From a virus: 22,840 bases of DNA. Of this stretch, positions 6,943-22,840 are shown piece after piece. Position numbers and translations under genes: made by a program. The notes under the pieces are model-generated. The model saw only the letters and a list, made by a program, of their open reading frames with translations, was not told the origin of the DNA and did no database searches. Within the stretch, counting starts at the first letter, position 1. Every line of letters starts with the position of its first letter. The stretch lies in the IMG/VR virus record IMGVR_UViG_3300030419_002852, positions 1 to 22,840 of that record; one strand, written 5' to 3'.

Positions 6943-8889
6943 ATGAGATCAATGCAAGAGATTAGAGAAGCTTATTTGAATGGAAGTATAGATTTCGATA
7001 TGGCTCAAAGTTATATGGAAGCTTTGGGGTATAGTCCAGATGATTCGTTGAGCATGGTCAGTAACTGGGTACAAACTGATATGGGGCAATTACCCCAGGA
7101 ATTGACTACTGCATCTGATGTAGAAGCAACTGCACGTCCAAGAGCTGCTGATAGAAGGCAGGTGTGGAATCCGGACACTCTAAGGTACGAGAGTATCCCA
7201 GCAGGGCCTAGCCCAGAGCGATTACAGGAAGAGTTGGAGTCAGCACAGAGGCGTGGTAAAGATTTTACTGTTCCAATAGGTTTCGATCCGGATAATTATG
7301 TCAGGCAGTCATTGCGAGGTGGTGTGCCGGTGAGAACTATGGCTGCTTTAGATGATCCAAGTTTGAGGACAACTTTTGATGCATTCATTGACAGAGTTGG
7401 TTCAAGTCAGCCTGATCCAAGTTTTTATAAAAGACAACAAGAGTTACAGGACTTAATAAATAAGCATGTAGTTGGGATTGACAATGTTCCAACTACTACG
7501 TTCACATCAGGTGTCGATCCTAGTTTACAAGACCTGGTTGTTAATAGGCCTCCTCCTTACGTACCGGATATGGTGGATCGTGCGAGAATTAGGCAAAGTA
7601 ATGAAGATTACCTGTATGACGATTCGGCTATGTATCAAAGCCCACAAGGTATCGTGCCACCTAAAGCTCCAATTGCAATAGCACCATCACTTACTGAAAT
7701 GATGCCTGGTGGAGTAAGTACTGGTTTTGCAGTACAAGATGTAGCAAGGGCGTTGAATCCTGGTATGACAACAGAGCCTTTAATTGTCAATTATGATGCG
7801 CCTTCTACCCAGACGGAATTTGTTGGAGGTGTGGGCGAAGATGTCAAAAAAATAATACCTCCAGCTTATACGCCACCAGAATTTCCAGAATCGCCATCGT
7901 CTATAGAAAAAGTACATAACGATTTAATTGAAAATGTAAAAAATGCGAAAACTGCTGCAGAAATAGAGAAGGCTAAAACGGCGTTGAATAAGTTCAGAAT
8001 TATCCAAGGTAATAAACTCAAAGGTTATACTGGAGCTACCGGAGCTACCGGAACTACTGGTACTACCGGAACTACTGGTACTACCGGAACTACCGGAACT
8101 ACTGGTACTACTGGTACTACTGGTACTACTGGTACTACTGGCACTACTGGTACTACTGGTACTACTGGTACTACTGGCACTACTGGTACTACTGGTACTA
8201 CTGGTACTGGTGCTAGTGGTGGTGATCAACCTGGTGCTGGTAGTCAACCTGGTGCTGGTAGTCAACCTGGTGCTGGTAGTCAACCTTCATTACCTTCAGA
8301 GGTATATAAACAACCGGTTATACAGCCAAGTCATCCTTATGCTTCCTATGGTGAATATACTTCACCTGCTTATGCAGATTGGAGGAGAAACCTTTATCGT
8401 GATGCTTCTCTGGCAGAACGAGCGAGACTTGAACAAACTGGCATGCCTTTAAGAGGTTACGACAGGGCGTTGGGGTCATTCTTATTAGATCCTACTACAG
8501 CAGAAACTTTAGGTAGGGAACCAGGTGAAGCTGAAGCATTCATAGATTACCTACAAGGTGGAAAGTATCTACCTCAAGAAGATCTTAGGGCAAGATTCGC
8601 TGGATTAACAGATTACTTGAAGAATGTAAGGGCGTATCAAGAAGAAGGTGGTGCTATGCCTATTGATAGTGGTGGTGGATATTTCGGTGTATTTGGTCAT
8701 GATCCTACTAAGGCAGATATCATTGGTGCAGGTACAGCAGCGTTGGGTTATTCTCGTGGTATGGGGGCAAGGGCAAGGAGGAACTTAATTAAAGCTTATG
8801 ATGCTTTAGGTAAGCAAAGATTTGCACCTGGTTTGACTGAGCCTTCAGGTTCAAGGTTCGCTGATTGGCTAAGCACGGCATTTAAGTAA
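6943..8889 (+). CDS. Probable virion protein with collagen-like Gly-Thr-Thr tract
   Basis: A 648-residue protein starting two bases after the portal stop. Residues 1-45 form a small helical motif ([22 protein letters not shown]). A long, polar, Pro-rich middle follows. Residues 364-420 are collagen-like Gly-X-Y repeats, two GAT and then seventeen GTT triplets, followed by three PGAGSQ units (430-447). The C-terminal 190 residues are more ordered, with a [25 protein letters not shown] segment that may insert into or contact membrane. Position between portal and the giant protein suggests an inner-head, vertex or ejected protein rather than a tail fibre. Family not recognised. The collagen-like tract could trimerise it or act as a flexible spacer. 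Confidence 0.85.
8032..8202 (+). repeat. 9-base tandem repeat coding Gly-Thr-Thr (19 units)
   Basis: Nineteen in-frame 9-base units run from 8032 to 8202: two GGAGCTACC units (Gly-Ala-Thr), then seventeen Gly-Thr-Thr units. The 5' units mix GGA/GGT and ACC/ACT codons. From 8104 on they are nearly uniform GGTACTACT, with GGCACTACT at 8140 and 8176. Because the unit is a multiple of three, gain or loss by slippage would change protein length without breaking the frame. Confidence 0.97.
8230..8283 (+). repeat. 18-base tandem repeat, three identical copies
   Basis: CCTGGTGCTGGTAGTCAA occurs three times in tandem (8230-8247, 8248-8265, 8266-8283) with no differences, coding three PGAGSQ units right after the Gly-Thr-Thr tract. 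Perfect identity indicates recent duplication or ongoing slippage. Confidence 0.97.
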
Positions 8890-8905: not shown

Positions 8906-9343
8906 ATGGCAACAAATAATAACAATCCATTTGGTGACTTCTATTCTGATATGCTGGAGATGGATCCTCAGATGGCTTATATGGCTAAGTTAAGTTCACA
9001 AACATTTGGTTATAATCCTTTGACGTTTGCAGGGGAAACCTCTACTCGTCAACCTGCTGAGTGGGGTGGTAAGTGGGGTTCATCATCGTTTGCTGGAGAA
9101 GCACCTGTTCAACAAAAAAGAGCTAGGGATTACTTTGCTAATCAATACTCAAATATATACAACGAGTATATGGCTAAGAAAGGTAGAGAATATCAACAAA
9201 AGGTAGATCCTGCCGAAATGACTACATTCTCTGACTTTTTATCTGACATACCTTTTACTACTAGGTATGCTCAATTAACCCCTTATCAAAGAGGCATGTC
9301 TTCGCAAAGATTTGCTCCTAGTACCAGGTATATATTTTACTAA
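8906..9343 (+). CDS. Unknown protein between repeat protein and giant protein
   Basis: A 145-residue protein with a clear ribosome-binding site (TAGGAGA) before ATG 8906. Its stop overlaps the start of the giant gene as TAATG, so the two are probably translationally coupled and made in a fixed ratio. The N-terminus is Asn/Met-rich and polar and the rest is rich in aromatic residues (many Tyr, Phe, Trp). No signal peptide, membrane segment or known motif is visible. The coupling suggests a partner or minor virion component assembled with the 1855-aa protein. I do not recognise a family. Confidence 0.75.
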   Translation: MATNNNNPFGDFYSDMLEMDPQMAYMAKLSSQTFGYNPLTFAGETSTRQPAEWGGKWGSSSFAGEAPVQQKRARDYFANQYSNIYNEYMAKKGREYQQKVDPAEMTTFSDFLSDIPFTTRYAQLTPYQRGMSSQRFAPSTRYIFY

Positions 9344-12300
9344 TGACTACTCCTAATAGAGATAGGGATATATGGGCGAGGTTTAGGCCTGCATTACAAC
9401 AGGCTGGGAGGACATTAGGTCAAGCTGCTGGGGATTTTGCTCAGTTACCTGGGGTTAAACAAGTGATAGGCGCTGTTGCTCCGGTGGTCACTGCAGCTTC
9501 TGAAAAAGTTGTTAATCCTTTTATGAGTCAGGTTATAGCTGGTTCTCCTCTTCAGGGTATTACTAAAGATCCTGATAGAAGGTGGGAGGCATTTAAAACC
9601 CCTGATGGTGATGTATCTTGGGGTGCAATCGTCCAGGCTAATCCAATATCTTTGCTTGCTAGAGGAACTATGGGTCTAGCTAGAGAGCATATTCCTGGAT
9701 TACATGATTTTAGGATAGCTCCTCAAGGCACAATGAAGGCACAAAGGTTACGAGCTGAAGAGGCTAGGCGTGAAGCTGAATTAGGCAGGCAGTTGACTGG
9801 CAGAGAGTTGAGGCTGATGGAGCAGGAGATGTATGCACTTCCTAAACATTTCAGAGGCGCTATACAGGAAGCTCCGTTTTTTGCATTACCATCCACTGGT
9901 GCTATAAGAGCTGCCTCAGCAGCTGCTAGAGGTGGTGCTGCATTGAGTGCAGCTGGAAGATTAGGTAGAGCTGCTCCACTAGCACGTGGAGGATTACGTG
10001 CTGCTGAAGTAGCTTTAAAACCATTAGAGGTTGCAGAAACTGCAGCTGCCAAGGCTATTGCTGCTCCATTCAAAGGTGCTGCTAGGGGTGTAGGTGCTAT
10101 GTCATCTACTGCTAGAGGGGCTATGGCTGGAGCTGCCAGGGGTGTTAGGGCTGGTACTCCAGGGAAATCTACTATACCCAGGAGGGTATTTGAGAGAGAA
10201 ACTGATTTAGCAGCTGATATTAAAAGGCCTGGGTCATCTGACATCAGGTATACAGTTGGAGTTGACGATACAAGGCCTCCTAAAGTTTCTAGTAGATTTA
10301 TCAGAGATGAAGCTAAGGCTATGTATAAACGAGATAATAATATAAGTATGAATGATGCTTTTGATAGAAGTCAGTCTAAGAACTATGGTGATTGGGCTGA
10401 AAAATTATTTAAAGAAGAATTAGCTGTACAGCAAGCACCTAAAATATCTGATTTGAGTTTAAGGGCTTTTAGGAACATGAGACAGGGATGGAGTAAAGGC
10501 AGGGTTCCTCTTGAGTCAGGAGCTAACATCGTGGCAAGAGATATTGAAGGGATCGAAAGAGTTATAAGAAGTGGGTATATCAAAACGGCAGCTGCGAGAC
10601 AAGCTATGGGTAAGCATGGTAAAGCTTTAGCTAAGAAGGCTTTAGGTGAGGGTCATACCAAAACTATCGAAAGAGTTCTTGCAGAGCGATTGTCTAGATT
10701 TCCTCTTCATAGAGCTGATTTTTATGTGTATATGTATGAAAAGTTAGGTGATGCTACTTTCGGTCTGAGGACGTTTGAGGATTATGGGGCATGGAAGGCT
10801 GTTCATGCTGGTGCTAATTTCGACAAGAATTATCTTAGTGAGGAGTTAGCAGCGAAAGCTAAAAAATATGTTCCATTAGCAGATAAACTCGTAAGGTCTA
10901 TTGGTAATGCTGTGAACAGGGGTGGAGCATTGTTCATGAATTTCCACAGAAAAGACTTACAACCTGTTCTACAAAAGTTTTCTTTTGAAAATAAACCTGA
11001 TGGTTTCAATCAATCAAGTATAATCGATGATATAGAAAAATATGTTCAGGCTATGGGTTGGCTTAATTTAAAGAAATTAGGTAGGACTACTACTACTAAG
11101 GGTGTGGGTAAAGACTGGAGGCCTAAACATTTTGACAGGGTTAAGGCTGAGGAATTAGGTGTAGATCCATCTAAGACTGATGGTGTATATGGTATAGATC
11201 ATGCTTATATGGATGTGACGGAAGACATGTTGACTGAGTGGGGAGATATGACAAGTGCCAATTTTGCTAAGTACTCAGATGCAGAGAAGGATGCTATATT
11301 AGAAGGCGCAGAAAAGATTGCTGATGTATATAAACATGATAGATTAAGATTGTTCAAGGAAGGTATTTTAAGCCAAGAAGAGTTTGATCTGTTTAGTAGA
11401 GAATATAAATGGTATAACCCTGTTGAGTATGCTGAGGGGAAAGATACTGGTGGATTGATGAAGGCTGGCAGAAGGCTGGAAGACAGGAATGTCATTCATA
11501 ATTCAGTGTTCGAGCTAGCTGAAAAGGCTAATTTCTCAGCGTTTCCACCAACAGGTGAGGCTATGGCACATCGGTTGATACAAACGCAAATAAAGCTAAA
11601 TAAGAATCAAGTTACTAAGGCTTTTGTTGATTTAGGTATTCCCCAGGAGATGGGCTTAAGAGATGTTAGTGATCAATTCGTTAAATATAGGGTGTACTTA
11701 AAGAGAGGTAGAGGTAAGGGGTTCTGGGATAAGGGCGCTAAAGATGGCTTTGTGGATTTAAGTCAGGCAGATATAGAAAAGATGTTCCCCAATTACAGGC
11801 AATGGGGGCCTGTGAAACCAGGGCAAAGTGTAGGGCATTTGGAAAATGTGTCGAGGCAGATCAAAACAGGCCCTAATGCTGGCCAATATAAGACAGAAAA
11901 GTTGAGACAGGTAGGTAAGGGCAAGGCTAGATATAATGTAGATGTTACACAGAGAGTCGATAAAATATATACTAATCCTGCTTATGATGAAAAGTTAAAT
12001 AGTGGTTATCTATCCTTTTTCCGTAATGGTGAGCGAGTCGTGTATGGTTCTCAAGATGGTGGCGTTGTTCCTAAACAATTATGGGATATGATTAATGGTC
12101 GTGAGGGGTTAGGACTTAGAGGACATAAAGCTATGATTCCTGCCTTGAAAGCTGCCAATGGATTTGTAAGGTCTATGTATACAGAACAGAATCCGGTGTT
12201 TGCTGTAAGGAATGGAATAATTGACATGTTTACTGTTCAGATGAAGGCTGGTGTAGGCATGCATAAATCTGGAGCCAGGGTCATGAGGAGTTTATGGAGT

Positions 12301-14910
12301 GCGACTACAGGTGCTGAGGACAGGATGAAAGAGCTGATAGCAGAGTCCGGAGGATGGGATAATAGATTTTATAATGCTGATAAAAACATAGCTCGTGTTG
12401 AGCAAGAAATAAAAAAAGCTGGGCATAAGGCTCATGTACTTACAGGCACAGATCAGGCTAAGTTAAGAAAATCTCTGGAGAAAATAACTGAGGATAATTT
12501 AAAAAGTAAGATTAAGACTATAATACCTACGTTTGGTACAGCTATAGAACAGGCTCCCAGGTTGGCAGTCTCGGAGAAGTCTTTAAGAAAGCAAATAGGG
12601 GATGCTGAGTTAAACAGGATATTAAAGTTAAGTAGAAAAGAATTTGAGAAAGAAATGAATGAGGACTGGGTAAGGGTCTTTGATGCTAAGGGTAATCGTA
12701 TAAGGAATCCTCAGTCCACAGGGAAAGGATTCTCTCAGGCTATGGAGTTCCAGAAGGCAGCTTCAAATGGAATAGAGGCTACGCTTGACTTCTCCAGGGG
12801 TGGGCAACTGATACGCAATATGAATCAATACTTCTTGTTTTTCAATGCAGCTATGGAGGCTGTCAAGTTGCCATTTAGGACATTAGGAATTAATTTGCAT
12901 CCGGTAATCAGGCCTGTGAATTATGCTGGTAGGGTTAGAAACCCTGGCGATCCTGTATATGAATGGGGTACGACTAGTGAGCAGATAAAACGATATTTGA
13001 CTCTTGGAATGGCTGACAGGGGTGTTACAGGAAGGTCTTTTGATGTGGTTGCTGGTGGGCCTAAGACAGCTGCTTTACGAATGGGAGCTGCTGTTTCTAC
13101 TTATATGGTTCTTCAGAATGTTTGGAACAAACAGTTTAAGTATAACGGAACTTCTATGTATTATGATGTTCCTCCGTATATAAGATACAACTCTTTTGTG
13201 ATGATGATGGATTCTGAAAAAGATGAGAATGGTGATTATATTATAGATCCAAGAACTGGCAGGCCTAAGCCTGAGTATATAGTAATACCACATAAGTTAC
13301 GTGAATGGAATCTTTTGGCTCAATCAGTCACGTATTTTGATGAGGCTACAGATGAAGAAGTTCCTATGGATAAGCAGAGGTGGTTTAATGAATTTAAGAA
13401 GTCGTTCTCACCTATAGAAGGTAGGTTCTTAGTGCCAGAGCCAATTGATATAGCTTGGGAGGAATTGACTAATAGAGATCATTATAGGGGTACAGATATT
13501 ATTGATCCAGAATATCAGCAATTACCACCTAATGAACAGTACAATAGGTATACTAGTTTGTCTGCTAGGAAAGTGGCAGGCATCTTTGATAAAGCTGAAT
13601 TTCCAGAGTTTGTAGACGATGTTGTTAGTAGTCCAGAGAGACTTGATCATTTGGTAGAGAATGTTTTCGGAACTCTTGGCAGAGAATCTTTACGTATGGC
13701 TGACGCAGCTATTATCTTTTCGAGGGAATTAAGGCGATTAGAGCCGAGGCCTATGAAAGAGTGGGTTAAGGAATATCGAGAGGACATGGATCCTACTGAA
13801 CGCAAAGAGTTCATGGTCAGCTTGGATGAAGAAGAATATGCAGAGTTTCAGAAAGAATTAAAAGAAACAGAGTTACAAACACCATTTCTTGCAGTATTAA
13901 AAAGATCTTTCTTACCTTCCAGGGGTGGAGGAATACGAGAGATTCAGAGAAAAGAAACTGAAAAAGCGTTTCCGGAGATAGATCCTAAACAGAATTATAA
14001 GGCAGGAATCCAGGCTGCTAAAGATAGGCAGTCGCTGAAGTTTAAGCAGGATAAAGATGATCAGGCATTGAATAACTGGAGGACAAATTCTGCTGGCACT
14101 CAACTCACGCCTAGTGAATGGATTGATAGTCATGAAAATAAATGGGATTTATATGCCAGAGATATAGAGAAATTAGCTGAAGCTTTTCCAGGTTCTATAT
14201 ATGCACAACCAGCTGAAGTAAGAGATGCTTATTATCAGGCTTACCATACAGCTGCTGGCAAGATGAAAGATCAGAGAGATGGGGCTGACTTTCTTATTGC
14301 AGGTTACAGGGCTATACAAAGGCCTTCAGGTGACCCAGGGTCTTCTGATTGGTCAGAGTACTATAGGGCTAGAGATGAGTTCGTAGTCAATATTAAAAAA
14401 GCATCAGAATCAGCTGGTGATAATTTATATAATGAGTTCTTGAGAAGGCTAGAGGCTAATTATACAGAGACTGAGAAGGCTTATTATAAGGCGATGAAAA
14501 CTATATCCCCTTATTGGGGTGCAGGCCAGGATGTAAGAGAGTTTTACACACCACAGTCTCATCCACAATATTACCAGGGGTCAGGTATTAGTATAGATGA
14601 TATCCAGGCGTTATGGGGTATATATCTCAAGGCTAGTGTCCACAAGAAAGAGGCTATGCGTTTTGCCCAGGACAAAGATCCTAGGAAAAGGAATTATGTA
14701 CCTAATGCTGGTAATCATCCTGCGTTGCTAAAAGATATGATCAAAAAGCGTAGTGATATGAGAAGACGAATGATCTTGAATGATCAAATCGCTAATAATG
14801 GGAAGTCTGTATTAGAAAGTGCTTTGGTTTTCTGGTATGGTGGTACATATTACAAGTATCCTGTTACTAAGGAGGGCAAAGCTTTTTGGAAACAATTATA
14901 TTTAAGGTAA
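9343..14910 (+). CDS. Giant (1855-aa) probable internal virion protein, LPD38-like core
   Basis: The largest gene in the window. Residues about 1-300 are rich in Ala, Gly and Arg with amphipathic stretches (for example 190-270), as in proteins ejected with DNA. The middle part has long helical blocks. Residues 950-960 (NPVFAVRNGIID), 1164-1175 (FLFFNAAMEAVK) and 1273-1282 (YYDVPPYIRY), followed by an 'EYIVIPHKLREWN' step, resemble the conserved motifs of LPD38-type domains in phage polyvalent proteins (recalled, not searched). Residues 1727-1805 repeat the module of the protein at 2417-2833. No polymerase, lysozyme or protease motif was recognised. The likely role is capsid-packaged and injected with the genome. 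Its place between portal and scaffold, rather than after the tail genes as in T7, is notable. Confidence 0.85.
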   Translation: MTTPNRDRDIWARFRPALQQAGRTLGQAAGDFAQLPGVKQVIGAVAPVVTAASEKVVNPFMSQVIAGSPLQGITKDPDRRWEAFKTPDGDVSWGAIVQANPISLLARGTMGLAREHIPGLHDFRIAPQGTMKAQRLRAEEARREAELGRQLTGRELRLMEQEMYALPKHFRGAIQEAPFFALPSTGAIRAASAAARGGAALSAAGRLGRAAPLARGGLRAAEVALKPLEVAETAAAKAIAAPFKGAARGVGAMSSTARGAMAGAARGVRAGTPGKSTIPRRVFERETDLAADIKRPGSSDIRYTVGVDDTRPPKVSSRFIRDEAKAMYKRDNNISMNDAFDRSQSKNYGDWAEKLFKEELAVQQAPKISDLSLRAFRNMRQGWSKGRVPLESGANIVARDIEGIERVIRSGYIKTAAARQAMGKHGKALAKKALGEGHTKTIERVLAERLSRFPLHRADFYVYMYEKLGDATFGLRTFEDYGAWKAVHAGANFDKNYLSEELAAKAKKYVPLADKLVRSIGNAVNRGGALFMNFHRKDLQPVLQKFSFENKPDGFNQSSIIDDIEKYVQAMGWLNLKKLGRTTTTKGVGKDWRPKHFDRVKAEELGVDPSKTDGVYGIDHAYMDVTEDMLTEWGDMTSANFAKYSDAEKDAILEGAEKIADVYKHDRLRLFKEGILSQEEFDLFSREYKWYNPVEYAEGKDTGGLMKAGRRLEDRNVIHNSVFELAEKANFSAFPPTGEAMAHRLIQTQIKLNKNQVTKAFVDLGIPQEMGLRDVSDQFVKYRVYLKRGRGKGFWDKGAKDGFVDLSQADIEKMFPNYRQWGPVKPGQSVGHLENVSRQIKTGPNAGQYKTEKLRQVGKGKARYNVDVTQRVDKIYTNPAYDEKLNSGYLSFFRNGERVVYGSQDGGVVPKQLWDMINGREGLGLRGHKAMIPALKAANGFVRSMYTEQNPVFAVRNGIIDMFTVQMKAGVGMHKSGARVMRSLWSATTGAEDRMKELIAESGGWDNRFYNADKNIARVEQEIKKAGHKAHVLTGTDQAKLRKSLEKITEDNLKSKIKTIIPTFGTAIEQAPRLAVSEKSLRKQIGDAELNRILKLSRKEFEKEMNEDWVRVFDAKGNRIRNPQSTGKGFSQAMEFQKAASNGIEATLDFSRGGQLIRNMNQYFLFFNAAMEAVKLPFRTLGINLHPVIRPVNYAGRVRNPGDPVYEWGTTSEQIKRYLTLGMADRGVTGRSFDVVAGGPKTAALRMGAAVSTYMVLQNVWNKQFKYNGTSMYYDVPPYIRYNSFVMMMDSEKDENGDYIIDPRTGRPKPEYIVIPHKLREWNLLAQSVTYFDEATDEEVPMDKQRWFNEFKKSFSPIEGRFLVPEPIDIAWEELTNRDHYRGTDIIDPEYQQLPPNEQYNRYTSLSARKVAGIFDKAEFPEFVDDVVSSPERLDHLVENVFGTLGRESLRMADAAIIFSRELRRLEPRPMKEWVKEYREDMDPTERKEFMVSLDEEEYAEFQKELKETELQTPFLAVLKRSFLPSRGGGIREIQRKETEKAFPEIDPKQNYKAGIQAAKDRQSLKFKQDKDDQALNNWRTNSAGTQLTPSEWIDSHENKWDLYARDIEKLAEAFPGSIYAQPAEVRDAYYQAYHTAAGKMKDQRDGADFLIAGYRAIQRPSGDPGSSDWSEYYRARDEFVVNIKKASESAGDNLYNEFLRRLEANYTETEKAYYKAMKTISPYWGAGQDVREFYTPQSHPQYYQGSGISIDDIQALWGIYLKASVHKKEAMRFAQDKDPRKRNYVPNAGNHPALLKDMIKKRSDMRRRMILNDQIANNGKSVLESALVFWYGGTYYKYPVTKEGKAFWKQLYLR

Positions 14911-15804: not shown

Positions 15805-16680
15805 ATGGCACAGACGGCCACAACTGGGAATTTAGAAAATGCCCAGAAAATAATAATTAGTGCTGCTCGATATACTGAGGAGCATAATGCACCAGCTATG
15901 GCACTTACAGAGAAGTTTACTCTTCCTAAAGGTGCAAAGCAGGTAACAGTTCCTAAAGTAGGACAAATGTCAATGTCTGACTTAGTTGATGGACAAGACA
16001 TCATTGATGAAGAAGAAATCGGAATGACCACTGTAGACTTAACAGCATCAGAAGTTGGAGCTAAAGTTATATTAACTGACAAGTTAGTACGACAATCAGC
16101 ACCAAATGTTTTCTCCATTATTGGTAGACAGCTTGGTGATGGTATGGCTCGAAAGAAGGACAAAGACGTTCTTGCTTTATACACAAACTTAAATGGTGGA
16201 ACTAATTTAGGTACTGCTGGTACTTCTTTCAAGGTTACAAACGTACAAGCTATTATAGCTTATGCGAAAGCTAACAAGTTTGGATCGCAGTTATACATAT
16301 TGCACCATCCAAACGCAATAGCTTATCTTTCTAAAGAAGCTGCGACAGTTGGTACTACGGCTGGTGGAGCAATTCCTGAAGGTTGGACTGCCGACTTACT
16401 CAAGAATTTCTTTAGTGGGTTACGACCATTGAATAATGTTCCTATCTTTGAAGATGGAAACATTACTGTAGATAGTAATGACGATGGTATTGGTGTTATA
16501 GCTGACAAGTCAGCGATGGCAACATTGACAAGCGTTGATACTAGAACTGAACGTCAAAGAGACGCATCACTCAGGGCAACTGAGGTAGTTATGACAGCAG
16601 ACTATGGTGTATTCGAGTTAGATGACACCAAGGGAGCTGGATTGACTTATGATTGTGCTACTTTGTCACATACAGGGTAA
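15805..16680 (+). CDS. Major capsid protein (HK97-fold)
   Basis: A 291-residue protein forming the head shell. Layout fits an HK97-fold subunit without a delta domain: short N-arm (1-35), an extended E-loop-like region with 'TLPKGAKQVTVPKVGQMSMSDLVDGQDI' (39-66), a spine-helix candidate NVFSIIGRQLGDGMARKKDKDVLAL (101-125), and a P/A-domain part with 'SQLYILHHPNAIAYLSKEA'. The C-terminal segment 'RATEVVMTADYGVFELDD' is typical of capsid subunits. No N-terminal cleavage site is obvious. It has a GAGGT ribosome-binding site (15796-15800) and follows the scaffold after 28 bases. Confidence 0.9.
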   Translation: MAQTATTGNLENAQKIIISAARYTEEHNAPAMALTEKFTLPKGAKQVTVPKVGQMSMSDLVDGQDIIDEEEIGMTTVDLTASEVGAKVILTDKLVRQSAPNVFSIIGRQLGDGMARKKDKDVLALYTNLNGGTNLGTAGTSFKVTNVQAIIAYAKANKFGSQLYILHHPNAIAYLSKEAATVGTTAGGAIPEGWTADLLKNFFSGLRPLNNVPIFEDGNITVDSNDDGIGVIADKSAMATLTSVDTRTERQRDASLRATEVVMTADYGVFELDDTKGAGLTYDCATLSHTG

Positions 16681-16705: not shown

Positions 16706-17107
16706 ATGGCAACAGGCATAACTGAAAGAAACAAGTTAAAACAAGAATTAGCTGGTTTAGGCTATTCTTTAAAATACATAGATGAGTGGACTCCTAAAAC
16801 TAGGTTGTATAGGCATAAGCCTTCATATAATGTAGATGGAGATATACTCAAGGAGGTGGGTACTTATGTGGATAATGTACCTGGTAATCCTGACTATGTT
16901 CAAAGGAAAGCTAAGATAGGTTTGTTTACATGGAAACCTGGTCCTGAGTGTGAGTGCAAGTGGTGTGGTGAGTCTTTTAAACAGGATAACGAAAAGCCAG
17001 AGGTTTTTCAGGAATCTTGTAGCATATGTGGTGTTGTTTTTGAAGCTAAGGCTAAATCTGGTGTTATTTCAAAGCTAAAAGCACATAAGTCGAAGACTCA
17101 TTCGTAA
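16706..17107 (+). CDS. Zinc-finger protein downstream of capsid gene
   Basis: A 133-residue protein with an AAGGCAGG ribosome-binding site before ATG 16706. The C-terminal half has a dense set of candidate zinc ligands: C82, C84, C87 (ECECKWCGESF), C105 and C108 (SCSICGVVFEA), and H127 and H132 (KAHKSKTH). The pairs CxxC...CxxC could form a ribbon, or the last CxxC...HxxxxH a C2H2-like finger with a long 18-residue linker. The N-terminal 75 residues are basic and contain no recognised domain. It lies between the major capsid protein and another structural gene, so a head accessory, connector or virion-packaged DNA-binding role is possible. Family not recognised. Confidence 0.75.
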   Translation: MATGITERNKLKQELAGLGYSLKYIDEWTPKTRLYRHKPSYNVDGDILKEVGTYVDNVPGNPDYVQRKAKIGLFTWKPGPECECKWCGESFKQDNEKPEVFQESCSICGVVFEAKAKSGVISKLKAHKSKTHS

Positions 17108-18367: not shown

Positions 18368-18543
18368 TGGTCGCAAATAATACTGAAATTAATATTACAC
18401 AAGATGATTATGCTGAATTACTTAGAGGCGAGATAGCTGTAAATACTAATCTCAAACTCCAGGTAGCAGCTTTAAAAAGAACTGTAATAGAATTGCAGGA
18501 GATTAATAATGCCAGTACAAGCAAGGACAAGAAAGCAACTTAG
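18367..18543 (+). CDS. 58-aa coiled-coil protein overlapping the connector gene
   Basis: ATG 18367 overlaps the previous stop (TAATG) and the frame runs 58 codons to TAG 18541-18543, crossing the connector start at 18509 by 35 bases. The sequence ITQDDYAELLRGEIAVNT followed by LKLQVAALKRTVIELQEI has a heptad-like helical pattern. Short proteins with a 'TQEEYxxLL' start followed by a helix are common in phage structural operons. The connector's own ribosome-binding site (CAGGAG) lies inside this frame. Overlaps on both sides support a real, translationally coupled gene. Confidence 0.65.
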   Translation: MVANNTEINITQDDYAELLRGEIAVNTNLKLQVAALKRTVIELQEINNASTSKDKKAT

Positions 18544-19780
18544 GCAATCTATAGGATATAACTTAGGTGCGTTGAAGGTTGGCACAGCTACAGGAGGTAC
18601 TAATAATACCCTGATAGATGTTAATACTTTTAGAGGTGGAGATGATGAGTATATTGGTAAACTAGCCTTAGTTACTGATGCTGATGACAGTTCTCAAACT
18701 ACACAATATGTTAATGATTATACAGCTAGTAATAATACTATTCAGTTTCAACAAAATGCTAGTTTCACAGTAGCTAGTGGCGATGAATATGAATTATGGA
18801 GTGAGCCTTATACACCTACAAGAATACATGATTTTATTAATCAGGCAATCATAGATGTTACTGGCCATGCATATGATCCAATAGAAAGTGTTGCGTTGCA
18901 TGCTGATGGAGCTAGTATGCGATATGATATTCCTGCTAATATTTCTGTTGTAAATAATCTTTATTATAGAAGTTCAGTATCTTTTACAGAGTTACATAGT
19001 TGCAACTCAGTATTTGACAGTAACCTAACAGGAACTATAGTAGCTAGTGTGGATACTCAAGATAAGAAAAAGGGAACAGGAAGCCTGAAGCTTATAACTA
19101 CATCTGCTGATGCAGGAGATATAGCAGGTGACACTTTTGCCTCTAAAGATATTTCTAAGTATGATTATTTGGAATGTTGGATTAAAAGCACAATAGATAC
19201 ATCTTCTGGTAATTTAAAAATCCATTTACATAGTGCTGCTATCACAGAAAGCATAGCTAATAGTGGTAGCTTAGAGTCATTAAACGTTCCAGCTTTAAGT
19301 GCAGATACTTGGACATATGTAAGGTTACAACTTGCAAATCCAGAAAAAGATACTGCAATAATCGCCATAGCATTAGAACATGATTCTAATTTAGATGATT
19401 GCCAGATTAGACTAGATGATATCAAGGTAGTACAAAGCGATACTGCTGTATGGGAAAAATTTGGAAGACATTTATGGAGCATTGATAAAGAATCAAGGGA
19501 TTTGGTTTTAACGCAGTCAGGCAAATATGAAGCTGGTTATGCTTTAATAAAGATAGTTGGTGGAGATAAACCAGCTTTACTTTCAGCAGAAACAGGCACT
19601 AGTGAAATAGATGATTCATACATAATAGCAAAAGCAACTGCTTTAGCGTTTGCATCTGCTTCTGGTGGAGCTGGCACAGATCCAGATACACTTAGGCAAC
19701 AATCTGCGTTCTGGTTTGGTATGGCAGAACAGTCTAAAAGGGCATTTCCTTTATTGGTTAATTCCAGGGTCGTGGATTAA
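18509..19780 (+). CDS. Head-tail connector/adaptor with inserted beta-sandwich domain
   Basis: A 423-residue protein. The N-terminal part (1-155: RTRKQLRQSIGYNLGAL ... TPTRIHDFINQAIIDVTGHAYDP) and the last 100 residues ('GYALIKIVGG ... AFWFGMAEQSKRAFPLL') have the helical, tail-tubular-A-like character of podovirus adaptors that sit under the portal. Between them, residues about 160-310 look like a carbohydrate-binding-type or lectin-type beta sandwich: a 'VASVDTQDKKKGTGSLKL' start, 'KYDYLECWIKSTIDTSSGNLKIHL', 'PALSADTWTYVRLQLANP', and 'CQIRLDDIKVV' as the last strand. Its stop overlaps the next start (TAATG). The adaptor call rests on this layout and on position before the probable nozzle gene. 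Confidence 0.78.
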   Translation: MPVQARTRKQLRQSIGYNLGALKVGTATGGTNNTLIDVNTFRGGDDEYIGKLALVTDADDSSQTTQYVNDYTASNNTIQFQQNASFTVASGDEYELWSEPYTPTRIHDFINQAIIDVTGHAYDPIESVALHADGASMRYDIPANISVVNNLYYRSSVSFTELHSCNSVFDSNLTGTIVASVDTQDKKKGTGSLKLITTSADAGDIAGDTFASKDISKYDYLECWIKSTIDTSSGNLKIHLHSAAITESIANSGSLESLNVPALSADTWTYVRLQLANPEKDTAIIAIALEHDSNLDDCQIRLDDIKVVQSDTAVWEKFGRHLWSIDKESRDLVLTQSGKYEAGYALIKIVGGDKPALLSAETGTSEIDDSYIIAKATALAFASASGGAGTDPDTLRQQSAFWFGMAEQSKRAFPLLVNSRVVD

Positions 19781-21738
19781 TGGCAAATAAGGTTGTACAA
19801 AAAAATGAAATATATCTTGGTGGAACATATTATCCATTAAGTAGGCCGGTACAAAGTGTATTGGCTTCTATATATCCATCTAAGATAGTTATAGGCGATA
19901 CTACTAAAGACTCTAATATACGCACTTCTGTTATTGCCTGGAGTGACTGGAGAGGTGGAATTGGTGTAGAGAGAATGCAAGGCCCTGCTGATGTGGATAG
20001 AGCATGGTATTCAACTTGTAACTTGAGGCATAGACATCATTTGGTGTTACCTGCTAAGTCTACAGCTACCACAGCTCAAGATACCAGTAATACAAATATC
20101 AATGGCATTATAACTTTCATACAAGATTTAGGTAATGTTTTATATGCAGGATGGAATCAAGCTCCATATTATTACTCAGAAGCTAGTGACAGATGGACTA
20201 GGGTTACTCATGTAGTTGATGATGTTACTGTTGCTTATTCTTTTCCTAGTACACCTAGTGATTCAATTACTGTTCGTGTAGGTACTACAGATTATATAGT
20301 GGTAGCACATACTACAGGATATAGTTATTTTTCTAGTGCAACTACTGTTACTGATAAAACCACAGATGTAAAGTATCTTGCTTTTTGGGATGATAGATTA
20401 TGGGGAATAGATAAGTCAGGTCAATTATGGTATACACTTACTATAGATGGAACACCTGTTAATGACGCTAAATTGCCTGTACAGGACGATTTTGTCACTG
20501 ATCTATTCGTTGGTAGGGATGCGACCGGAGAACAGATTCTATATGCTGCTACTAAAGTTGGCTTATATGCGCATGATATGGCAAACCAAAGGTTTGTAGA
20601 AACACAGTTTCAGTTGCCTTTTCATAAGTTTAACGGCGTAGGTTCAGCTCGGTGGAGAGATGCTGTCTACAATCCTAGTGGACTAGGTATCTATAAGTAC
20701 ATCAATGGTAATAATAATGCTGTTGTGACAGTTATGGGGCCAGACAGAGATGATGGTTTGCCTGCTACTTACAGGGGTACTGTTAAGCAATTAATAGGAA
20801 CACATACAGAATTGTTAGCTGCAGTAGATGCAACTACATCACCTGGGGCTGTTTCTAGTACAAGTATTCCCTGGGAATATGGTATGTCGGCAGGTATGAG
20901 TGGGCATAGTTCTCCAGTTATAGTTGCAAGTAGTGGTCAGTCTTCAATAGTAGCCTGGAATGACACAGGCTGGGAAACTAAATGGGTTGCTGGGTCAACT
21001 AATATTGGGAAAGCTATCAATACAATGTTAGTTACAAATGCTGGTAAAGGTGATTATAGGTTATGGTGGGGATTTGATGGGAAGGTATATCATCAATTAA
21101 TTCCTTTCGATGTTACTAATCCTTCGCAGTTAAGTGCTAAAGATGGTACAGATTATCAATATGAAGAAACTGGCTTCCATGAAACTCCTTGGTTTGATGC
21201 ACAGCAATCTGATGTAGATAAGTTGGCATTAAAATTGAAGGTGGAAGTAGAAGATGCAAGTTCTAACGAAACTGTGGCAGTACAATATGCTACAGATTAT
21301 AGCGATAGTTATACTACTATGGGTACTATCACTTCGAGTGGTACTACTACGTATACATTTGGAAGTAGTCTTGGTACTGGATTCAGATCAATCAAGTTTA
21401 AGTTAACATTGTCTAGGGAGTCTGGCACTACGGCAGCTATTATGAAGAAAACTCCTGATGTAGTTTCATTGTCTTTGGAATATAGGAAGAAGCTAGATGC
21501 TAAATATGGGCATTCAGTAGAAGTGAATATAAACAAGACATATAAAGGTAAATCTCCTAAACAATTACGAGCTGCGCTAGTAGCTGCAATAGAGTCTAAT
21601 ACGTTAAATGAGTTCACGTTCAGGGATGACAGTGGTGGTACTCGTAATTATTATGTAGATGTTACATCTGCAACAGGCGTAGAGTATACAGGATATGATG
21701 AACGAGGAACTTCAAGGATTACGTTGGTGGAACCATGA
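19780..21738 (+). CDS. Probable tail nozzle/tubular protein B, beta-propeller-like
   Basis: A 652-residue protein coupled to the connector by TAATG. It is rich in aromatic residues and beta strands, with repeated blade-like segments, for example 'LGNVLYAGWNQAPYYYSE', 'VKYLAFWDDRLWGIDKSGQLWY' and 'GEQILYAATKVGLYAHD'. This is the pattern of beta-propeller-containing nozzle proteins in short-tailed phages. The C-terminal 130 residues form a separate beta region ('KLALKLKVEVEDASSNETVAVQYATDYSD') and end in a small domain with 'RTYK'-type basic strands. It probably forms the tail tube end through which DNA exits and to which fibres attach. Confidence 0.78.
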   Translation: MANKVVQKNEIYLGGTYYPLSRPVQSVLASIYPSKIVIGDTTKDSNIRTSVIAWSDWRGGIGVERMQGPADVDRAWYSTCNLRHRHHLVLPAKSTATTAQDTSNTNINGIITFIQDLGNVLYAGWNQAPYYYSEASDRWTRVTHVVDDVTVAYSFPSTPSDSITVRVGTTDYIVVAHTTGYSYFSSATTVTDKTTDVKYLAFWDDRLWGIDKSGQLWYTLTIDGTPVNDAKLPVQDDFVTDLFVGRDATGEQILYAATKVGLYAHDMANQRFVETQFQLPFHKFNGVGSARWRDAVYNPSGLGIYKYINGNNNAVVTVMGPDRDDGLPATYRGTVKQLIGTHTELLAAVDATTSPGAVSSTSIPWEYGMSAGMSGHSSPVIVASSGQSSIVAWNDTGWETKWVAGSTNIGKAINTMLVTNAGKGDYRLWWGFDGKVYHQLIPFDVTNPSQLSAKDGTDYQYEETGFHETPWFDAQQSDVDKLALKLKVEVEDASSNETVAVQYATDYSDSYTTMGTITSSGTTTYTFGSSLGTGFRSIKFKLTLSRESGTTAAIMKKTPDVVSLSLEYRKKLDAKYGHSVEVNINKTYKGKSPKQLRAALVAAIESNTLNEFTFRDDSGGTRNYYVDVTSATGVEYTGYDERGTSRITLVEP

Positions 21739-22028
21739 TATATGATGCAGGTACTACAAATGTTGCTACAGCAGGTACGGAAGTTCAGCTTTCTAATACT
21801 GCTAACAGGGTACGTTGGATAAAGGTAAAAGCATTAGCTGGTAATTCTAATAAGGTTTATTTAGGTGTTAGTGATGTTACAGCTAGCAATGGATATGAGT
21901 TGTCTGCTGGTAACGAGATAGAAATAAGTTTTGCAGACCAGGGAGGAACAGTTGCATTTAGCACGTTTTATGTAGACGCAGCTGCCAATAACGACAAGGT
22001 TTGCTGGTCAGTAATATTGGATGGATAA
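21735..22028 (+). CDS. Small beta-rich tail-associated protein
   Basis: A 97-residue protein whose ATG overlaps the nozzle stop as ATGA. The sequence 'GTEVQLSNTANRVRWIKVKALAGNSNKVYLGVSDVTASNGYELSAGNEIEISF' then 'FYVDAAANNDKVCWSVIL' is a recurrent small beta-sandwich type in phage tail operons, where a quantity such as VYLG-x-SxVT-AS-GYEL follows a hydrophobic strand. The function in the family is unknown; a minor tail or adaptor component is likely. The next gene starts on its stop codon (TAATG). Confidence 0.8.
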   Translation: MIYDAGTTNVATAGTEVQLSNTANRVRWIKVKALAGNSNKVYLGVSDVTASNGYELSAGNEIEISFADQGGTVAFSTFYVDAAANNDKVCWSVILDG

Positions 22029-22426
22029 TGGTTACTCAGGCAGAAATATTCAATCCACCAGCTGACTGGGCTGGGTCTAGGCCAGAGTGGATGTTTTATG
22101 CCAGCTTGTTGCGATTAGGCTATCTGCCAGGCGATGACTTTGTGTATCAATCCCCATTACTTGGTGGTAGACTAGATAAAGGTGGATGGATTATTGATTT
22201 TGTATTTGATAATCCCCCAGGACTTGCAGTGAATGTTCAGGGGATATATTATCATTATGAGTTAGGATCTGATAATAGATCTAGGGATGTGTTTGCTAGA
22301 GAAGCTTTAGCAGGACAAGGAATAACATTAATATTTGTAGATGAAGATGACCTAGAGCAAGACCCTAGGGGGGTAACAGAAGCAGCATTACAATTTAGAG
22401 ACAGTTCTCGATTAGGAGGAAGATAA
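22028..22426 (+). CDS. VSR/PD-(D/E)xK-like nuclease-fold protein in tail cluster
   Basis: Translation from ATG 22028, which overlaps the previous stop, gives 132 residues; an upstream in-frame ATG at 22001 would overlap the previous gene needlessly. The layout is restriction-endonuclease-like: E20 in the first helix (RPEWMFYASLLRLGY), 'VYQSPLLGGRLDKGGWIIDFVF' with D57, a strand 'AVNVQGIYYHY' with Q71 and H76, D87 in the next helix, and a final strand and acidic turn 'ITLIFVDEDDL'. This matches very-short-patch-repair-type folds, where an Asp is followed by a V-x-G-x-x-x-H segment. The classical E-x-K is replaced by N-x-Q. It may be an active or decayed nuclease; no target is evident. Confidence 0.75.
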   Translation: MVTQAEIFNPPADWAGSRPEWMFYASLLRLGYLPGDDFVYQSPLLGGRLDKGGWIIDFVFDNPPGLAVNVQGIYYHYELGSDNRSRDVFAREALAGQGITLIFVDEDDLEQDPRGVTEAALQFRDSSRLGGR

Positions 22427-22840
22427 TGGCAAAACCAGGTTTAACTTTTGCAGGCTTTTTATATGATGATGCAGGAGATGCAATTAATGGAGCTACCATT
22501 AACTTGTATGAAAAGAATGGTACATCCACTTCTGTAGCAAATACAACGACTAACTCATCTGGTTATTGGACTATAAGTCATACTCCAGGGTCAGGAGAAG
22601 CTGGTGAATATGACGTTCAGATCACTTCAGGAGCTTCAAAGAGGCGTTTAAAGTTTGATGATGCAGTCCAATTAGCATCTCTTGACGCAGAGACTCTCTC
22701 TGTGAGAGCTAATGAGGGAGCAGCAGCAGCTTATTATATGTTTGCTGATGAAGGTGAGGATGCTGGTGATAGGTGGAAGGTTAATGTTGCTGATGGTGGT
22801 GTGATGACATTTGGTAATGATATTGCTTCTCAGGACACAT
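22426..22840 (+). CDS. Tail fibre or tailspike N-terminal region, partial
   Basis: ATG 22426 overlaps the previous stop (TAATG), and the frame continues past the window end (138 full codons seen). Residues 1-75 look like an immunoglobulin-like or carboxypeptidase-regulatory-like beta domain ('FLYDDAGDAINGATINLYEKNG ... TNSSGYWTISHTPGSGEAGEYDVQI'). Next come a helical linker and a repeat-like beta part (YYMFADEGEDAGDRWKVNVADGG) typical of trimeric fibre shafts. Position after the nozzle and small tail genes fits the host-recognition fibre, with the N-terminus binding the tail. The receptor-binding end lies beyond the window. Confidence 0.8.
   Translation, partial: MAKPGLTFAGFLYDDAGDAINGATINLYEKNGTSTSVANTTTNSSGYWTISHTPGSGEAGEYDVQITSGASKRRLKFDDAVQLASLDAETLSVRANEGAAAAYYMFADEGEDAGDRWKVNVADGGVMTFGNDIASQDT

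Follow-up and report, generated by a model that had tools for sequence, protein, structure and literature searches.

A predicted Vsr-type nuclease fold encoded at a constant position in the putative tail module of uncultured phages

The Vsr-type fold is already known, as is the occurrence of nucleases among structural genes, exemplified by gp4 of T4-like phages. The Vsr endonuclease carries an F-x-H half-motif, while T4 gp4 belongs to the TnsA/T7 endonuclease I type (PMC1189080) and, according to PMC7824862, which cites Benler 2020, is a virion-associated nuclease on whose DNase activity packaging depends. A Vsr-like fold also occurs without nuclease activity in FASTKD4, in which the equivalent of Vsr H69 is replaced by N and mutation of the D51 equivalent has no effect (PMC11879112). 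In the literature searched, no established tail role was encountered for any Vsr-type protein, in agreement with the preliminary description of the locus presented here, which knew of none.

The locus lies in a stretch of 22,840 bases (the window) that represents one whole IMG/VR virus record, with a gene order of terminase, portal, scaffold and capsid genes, followed by genes for proteins of 423 aa and 652 aa. The genes surrounding the one under study are:

18509–19780, plus strand: gene for a 423-aa protein, an adaptor or tail candidate (one relative matches a PHROG tail protein, 7e-5)
19780–21738, plus strand: gene for a 652-aa protein, the constant upstream partner and a nozzle or tail-hub candidate
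21735–22028, plus strand: gene for a 97-aa protein directly upstream with a one-base overlap, optional and mobile within the module
22028–22426, plus strand: gene for the 132-aa Vsr/EDxHD-like protein, based on the open reading frame, predicted fold and profile comparison
22426–22840, plus strand: start of a downstream fibre-like gene with a CarboxypepD_reg-like N-terminus, cut by the end of the window

The gene for the Vsr-like protein extends from an ATG at 22028 to a stop codon at 22424–22426 and encodes 132 aa, confirming the open reading frame first delineated. Both ends carry the sequence TAATG, such that the ATG overlaps by one base with the stop of the 97-aa gene (21735–22028) and the stop by one base with the start codon of the following gene, at 22426. 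The preliminary description had placed the gene in translational coupling between two tail genes; the overlaps on both sides bear out the coupling, while the tail identity of the neighbouring proteins, judged from gene order and weak profile matches, is likely. Comparison of the 652-aa protein with profiles from PDB, Pfam and PHROG yielded no useful match. Neither tRNAs nor Rfam RNA families were identified in the window, and scans for promoters and terminators returned signals no better than chance.

Several other features of the window are of separate interest. A 147-aa zinc-finger-like ORF (1968–2411) weakly matches Lar, a restriction alleviation protein (E 0.0098), and a 138-aa ORF (2417–2833) resembles the C-terminal part of a 1855-aa LPD38 protein (9343–14910), the two having in common the pattern DVREFY..PQ.HP...SID.IQ..W..YL, as in a duplicated or split module. 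Directly after the portal gene, a 648-aa protein (6943–8889) contains a collagen-like GTTGTT repeat (PF01391, E 0.00055), and a 133-aa ORF after the capsid gene (16706–17107) has two close cysteine pairs and is zinc-ribbon-like. A close relative (L028) possesses a staphylococcal-nuclease-like gene in its late region (13097–13549; PF00565, 2.5e-11), a second nuclease near tail genes.

As a single sequence, the Vsr-like protein matched Pfam families only below their cut-offs (MTES_1575, E 0.032, 14.7 of 38.2 bits; DUF559, E 0.25, 11.7 of 20.6 bits) and had no match to the Pfam Vsr family profile (PF03852) or in a sequence search of the PDB. An AlphaFold (AF2) model built from a 76-sequence alignment (A4; pLDDT 81.6, pTM 0.79) was used in place of an earlier, poor model from 17 sequences (pLDDT 66). 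The predicted order of a helix, three strands, a helix, a strand and two C-terminal helices includes the alpha-beta-beta-beta-alpha-beta core of PD-(D/E)xK enzymes; a fold unlike PD-(D/E)xK, named beforehand as a finding that would count against a VSR-like nuclease, was not predicted. In a Foldseek comparison with the PDB, the top-ranked structure was the I-Bth0305I catalytic domain (probability 0.99) and E. coli Vsr ranked fourth (probability 0.94), with ranks two and three occupied by Toxoplasma mitoribosome chains, which may be Vsr-like RAP proteins. Matches in a viral structure library were DUF559, homing and Vsr-type proteins. The Foldseek E-values were modest (0.03–0.08), and the fold assignment consequently leans on agreement between methods. 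An hmmsearch of A4 against PDB sequences had 3r3p as its best match (E 0.36); weak matches to RbcX in the same search were judged to be chance. Profile comparison by hhalign with six phage EDxHD homing endonucleases, retrieved by sequence, aligned residues 56–113 with a probability of 92% (E 5e-7, score 45.6), compared to scores of ≤20.1 for 60 column-shuffled profiles and 11.3 for the reversed profile, indicating that the similarity is not due to chance. In this alignment, D57 is paired with the D of the EDxHD enzymes, and their E-x-N-G and Y-W-H segments correspond to N69-V-Q71-G and Y74-Y-H76, respectively. A Vsr/EDxHD-type PD-(D/E)xK fold is therefore supported for the modelled protein, which consists of the 132-aa domain without a tethered DNA-binding region.

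Relatives were collected by a protein search of IMG/VR viral contigs (about 180), and a search with the 652-aa neighbour added divergent homologues not recovered in this way. The resulting alignment held 150 distinct sequences, seven of which were partial, and 144 near-complete sequences were used for site counts. The positions relevant to the predicted active site are:

22085–22087, plus strand: codon for E20, the first acidic residue of Vsr/EDxHD enzymes, invariant in 123 homologues and lost in clade X
22163–22186, plus strand: GGRLDKGG loop (residues 46–53), family-specific, between the first strand and D57
22196–22198, plus strand: codon for D57, the central metal-site aspartate of PD-(D/E)xK/Vsr enzymes by EDxHD alignment, lost in clade Y and L244
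22232–22240, plus strand: codons for N69-V70-Q71, in place of the (D/E)-x-K half-motif and aligned to the EDxHD E-x-N
22253–22255, plus strand: codon for H76, the equivalent of Vsr H69, aligned to the H of the EDxHD YWH
22286–22288, plus strand: codon for D87, present in 99% of the 123 homologues

The residues singled out from the sequence (E20, D57, N69-V-Q71, H76 and D87) all occur at the places first assigned to them. In 123 of the 144 near-complete distinct homologues, including relatives at 48–52% identity, there is no variation at E20, D57, N69, Q71 or H76, and at the rounding used the same is true of G52, G53, G72 and D105 in these intact-site sequences. The constellation of E, D, H and D of the EDxHD enzymes is complete in the window protein and in nearly all of the 123. 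The canonical (D/E)-x-K half-motif is absent, with N-x-Q in its place, as had been noted for the window protein, in all 123 intact-site members. Among characterised nucleases, none with N-x-Q was encountered; this half-motif alone does not signify inactivity, as Vsr possesses F-x-H and the EDxHD enzymes E-x-N.

An altered site occurs in 21 distinct sequences from three separate lineages. Clade Y (L272, L288, L291, L308 and L374) lacks D57, Q71 and H76, with N in place of the histidine in some members, and D87 is mostly gone. D57, Q71 and H76 are likewise missing from L244, which belongs to the window's own clade. In the 15 sequences of clade X, P19, E20, N69 and G72 are lost, D87 is retained and D57 is mostly kept or replaced by E; every member has a histidine one position after the H76 column, such that the site may be remodelled rather than dead. 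The H76 column contains no histidine in any of the three lineages, and G52 and G53 of the GGRLDKGG loop are mostly gone from them. Homologues in which D57 and H76 are not conserved, proposed at the outset as a finding that would speak against the nuclease reading, occur only in clade Y and L244; the site of clade X is modified, and 123 of 144 sequences keep both residues. In the protein tree, clades X and Y each form one clade (support 100) and L244 is placed in the window's clade (97/92), and an AU test rejected the grouping of clade Y with L244 (p = 0.012). The tree of the 652-aa neighbour needs at least four changes of site state and splits clade Y in two, which fits recombination moving the gene for the Vsr-like protein. 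No second copy of this gene was identified in 13 site-altered records, none of which is known to be complete; as the records are metagenomic fragments, these phages may carry a compensating nuclease elsewhere.

The neighbourhood survey indicated a fixed position. The 652-aa gene was present in 367 loci, of which 356 carry the gene for the Vsr-like protein; the remaining 11 end too early to judge, and no locus lacks it, equal to 356 of 356 loci with ≥900 bases after the 652-aa gene. The count includes loci that overlap on contigs and many that were retrieved with the Vsr-like protein itself; the fair sample comprises two scans driven by the neighbour, each of 80 rows. In all loci of sufficient length, including those of the three site-altered lineages, the gene comes right after the 652-aa or the 97-aa gene, and in the loci checked a fibre-like gene with a CarboxypepD_reg-type N-terminus is next downstream. 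Starts and stops on both sides of the gene overlap or are within a few bases of each other in most loci. Unlike the gene for the Vsr-like protein, the 97-aa gene can be absent or change position: in L024 (3765–4067) it is flanked by the 423-aa gene and the 652-aa gene, and it was not found in L071, L088, L112, L130 and L144.

Searches by tblastn with the Vsr-like protein and a divergent relative had no match in 50,697 phage genomes, nor did the 652-aa and 423-aa neighbours, and no relative of the Vsr-like protein or the 652-aa gene was present in GTDB genomes. The phage group is large, uncultured and seen only in metagenomes. The capsid protein of the window (15805–16680) is 30–33% related to those of Pelagibacter phages HTVC026P, 111P, 112P and 202P, whose tail modules, as annotated, belong to another type (tape-measure), pointing to an exchange of head and tail modules.

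For pairs matched at 80–85% identity of the neighbour, the mean identity of the Vsr-like protein was 78.7% amongst intact-site pairs (n = 91), compared to 60.9% amongst clade X pairs (n = 33) and 60.4% amongst clade Y pairs (n = 4), and in the site-altered lineages the gene evolves faster than its neighbours. Values of dN/dS were generally <0.25 in diverged site-lost pairs within clades X and Y, where computable. Combined with the lower identity, this indicates that purifying selection persists but relaxes on loss of the site. Residues conserved in all groups (P11, G16, G31, D37-F38, F58, P63, G80, L101, A120-L121, D125 and S127) plausibly represent the structural core and C-terminus. In L289 and L290 compared to L292, the DNA is almost identical up to the gene for the Vsr-like protein, protein identity within it is 75% and no match follows it, placing a recombination junction at the gene.

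The locus is read here, with about an even chance of being correct, as a stand-alone, domesticated EDxHD/Vsr-type nuclease domain that has become fixed within the tail-assembly cassette of these uncultured phages. Based on residue conservation, the protein probably still cuts DNA in most lineages, and the loss or rebuilding of the site with the gene retained suggests a second, probably structural, job. A tentative version of this reading, with somewhat less than an even chance, is a dual-role tail-module nuclease, of which three lineages gave up or rebuilt the cutting site but could not dispense with the protein, a mobile-element nuclease turning structural. The protein would be made with the tail proteins and probably be built into, or act on, the tail or neck. 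In most lineages, D57 and the backbone at residue 70 would form the metal site, with E20, Q71 and H76 assisting as in Vsr, and the cutting would most likely be a DNA-processing step at virion completion, analogous but not homologous to that of T4 gp4. The role in tail assembly would be independent of catalysis, which is proposed to explain retention of the gene after decay of the site. The main rival, which is unlikely but carries appreciable weight, is pure structural reuse, in which no lineage cuts DNA and N-x-Q is the sign of an inactive site. The conserved polar residues would then contribute to fold stability or to DNA binding without cleavage, and the protein would be a piece of the tail or of the fibre attachment, or a chaperone. 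This rival draws on the acid of the half-motif missing everywhere, with N at position 69 of all intact members, and on the Toxoplasma mitoribosome chains amongst the fold matches; FASTKD4 provides a precedent for the fold without activity (PMC11879112), although Vsr itself is active without the acid (PMC1189080). Structural reuse had been raised in the preliminary description, and the loss of D57 and H76 in clade Y and L244, which kept the gene, accords with it, while retention of both residues in 123 of 144 sequences does not. The invariance of E20, D57, Q71, H76 and the G52-G53 loop in those 123 sequences, and faster evolution only where site residues were lost, point instead to a function tied to the site.

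Two further explanations were also raised in the preliminary description. A DNA weapon that travels with the virion into the cell to cut host or competing phage DNA, its expression from the tail operon serving only to have it packaged, is consistent with the late structural operon, the intact site of most lineages and the single recombination junction at the gene (L289/L290 compared to L292), but appears improbable considering that no separate DNA-recognition domain or immunity-like partner gene was noticed and that presence is universal, rather than patchy as in typical competition genes. A free-standing homing endonuclease or its remnant is very improbable, despite phage EDxHD homing endonucleases being the closest relatives by solved fold and profile. 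The gene is obligate at one position and coupled to neighbours on both sides, purifying selection continues after site loss, and there is neither an Rfam intron match nor a DNA-binding module; with no empty alleles among the loci examined, homing as a current function was rejected.

For the reading as a domesticated nuclease domain of the tail cassette, the new elements are the combination of this fold with a tail module, its obligate status and the repeated loss of the site, presenting a case of a mobile-nuclease fold domesticated within one phage group. Natural intact-site and broken-site versions at the same position make the choice between catalysis and structure directly testable by comparing variants.

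Amongst known systems, T4 gp4 is alike in being a small restriction-endonuclease-fold protein encoded among structural genes, but is not of the Vsr type and differs in position and phage type, with TnsA only 48th among the Foldseek PDB matches (E 5.1). FASTK/RAP proteins such as FASTKD4 have the same H to N replacement as some clade Y members, but are eukaryotic mitochondrial RNA-binding proteins. The DUF559 and MTES_1575 families (PF04480 and PF18741), which have an E-x-D half-motif, match weakly by profile from D57 to about residue 120. Vsr (PDB 1vsr) has the fold in common and also lacks a canonical (D/E)xK, and its D51/H69 pair (described in PMC11879112) corresponds to D57/H76; it differs in its F-x-H compared to N-x-Q and in genomic role, the gene described here having no dcm-type partner. 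The EDxHD enzymes I-Bth0305I (PDB 3r3p), Hef-like and F-LimVII share the catalytic fold, the order of E...D...H and a G-x-Y-[YW]-H turn, and the phage EDxHD homing endonucleases are the best profile match of all. Those homing enzymes have E-x-N where the Vsr-like protein has N-x-Q, are about 460–525 aa with long DNA-binding regions compared to 132 aa, and are sporadic and mobile, whereas the gene described here is fixed in a late operon.
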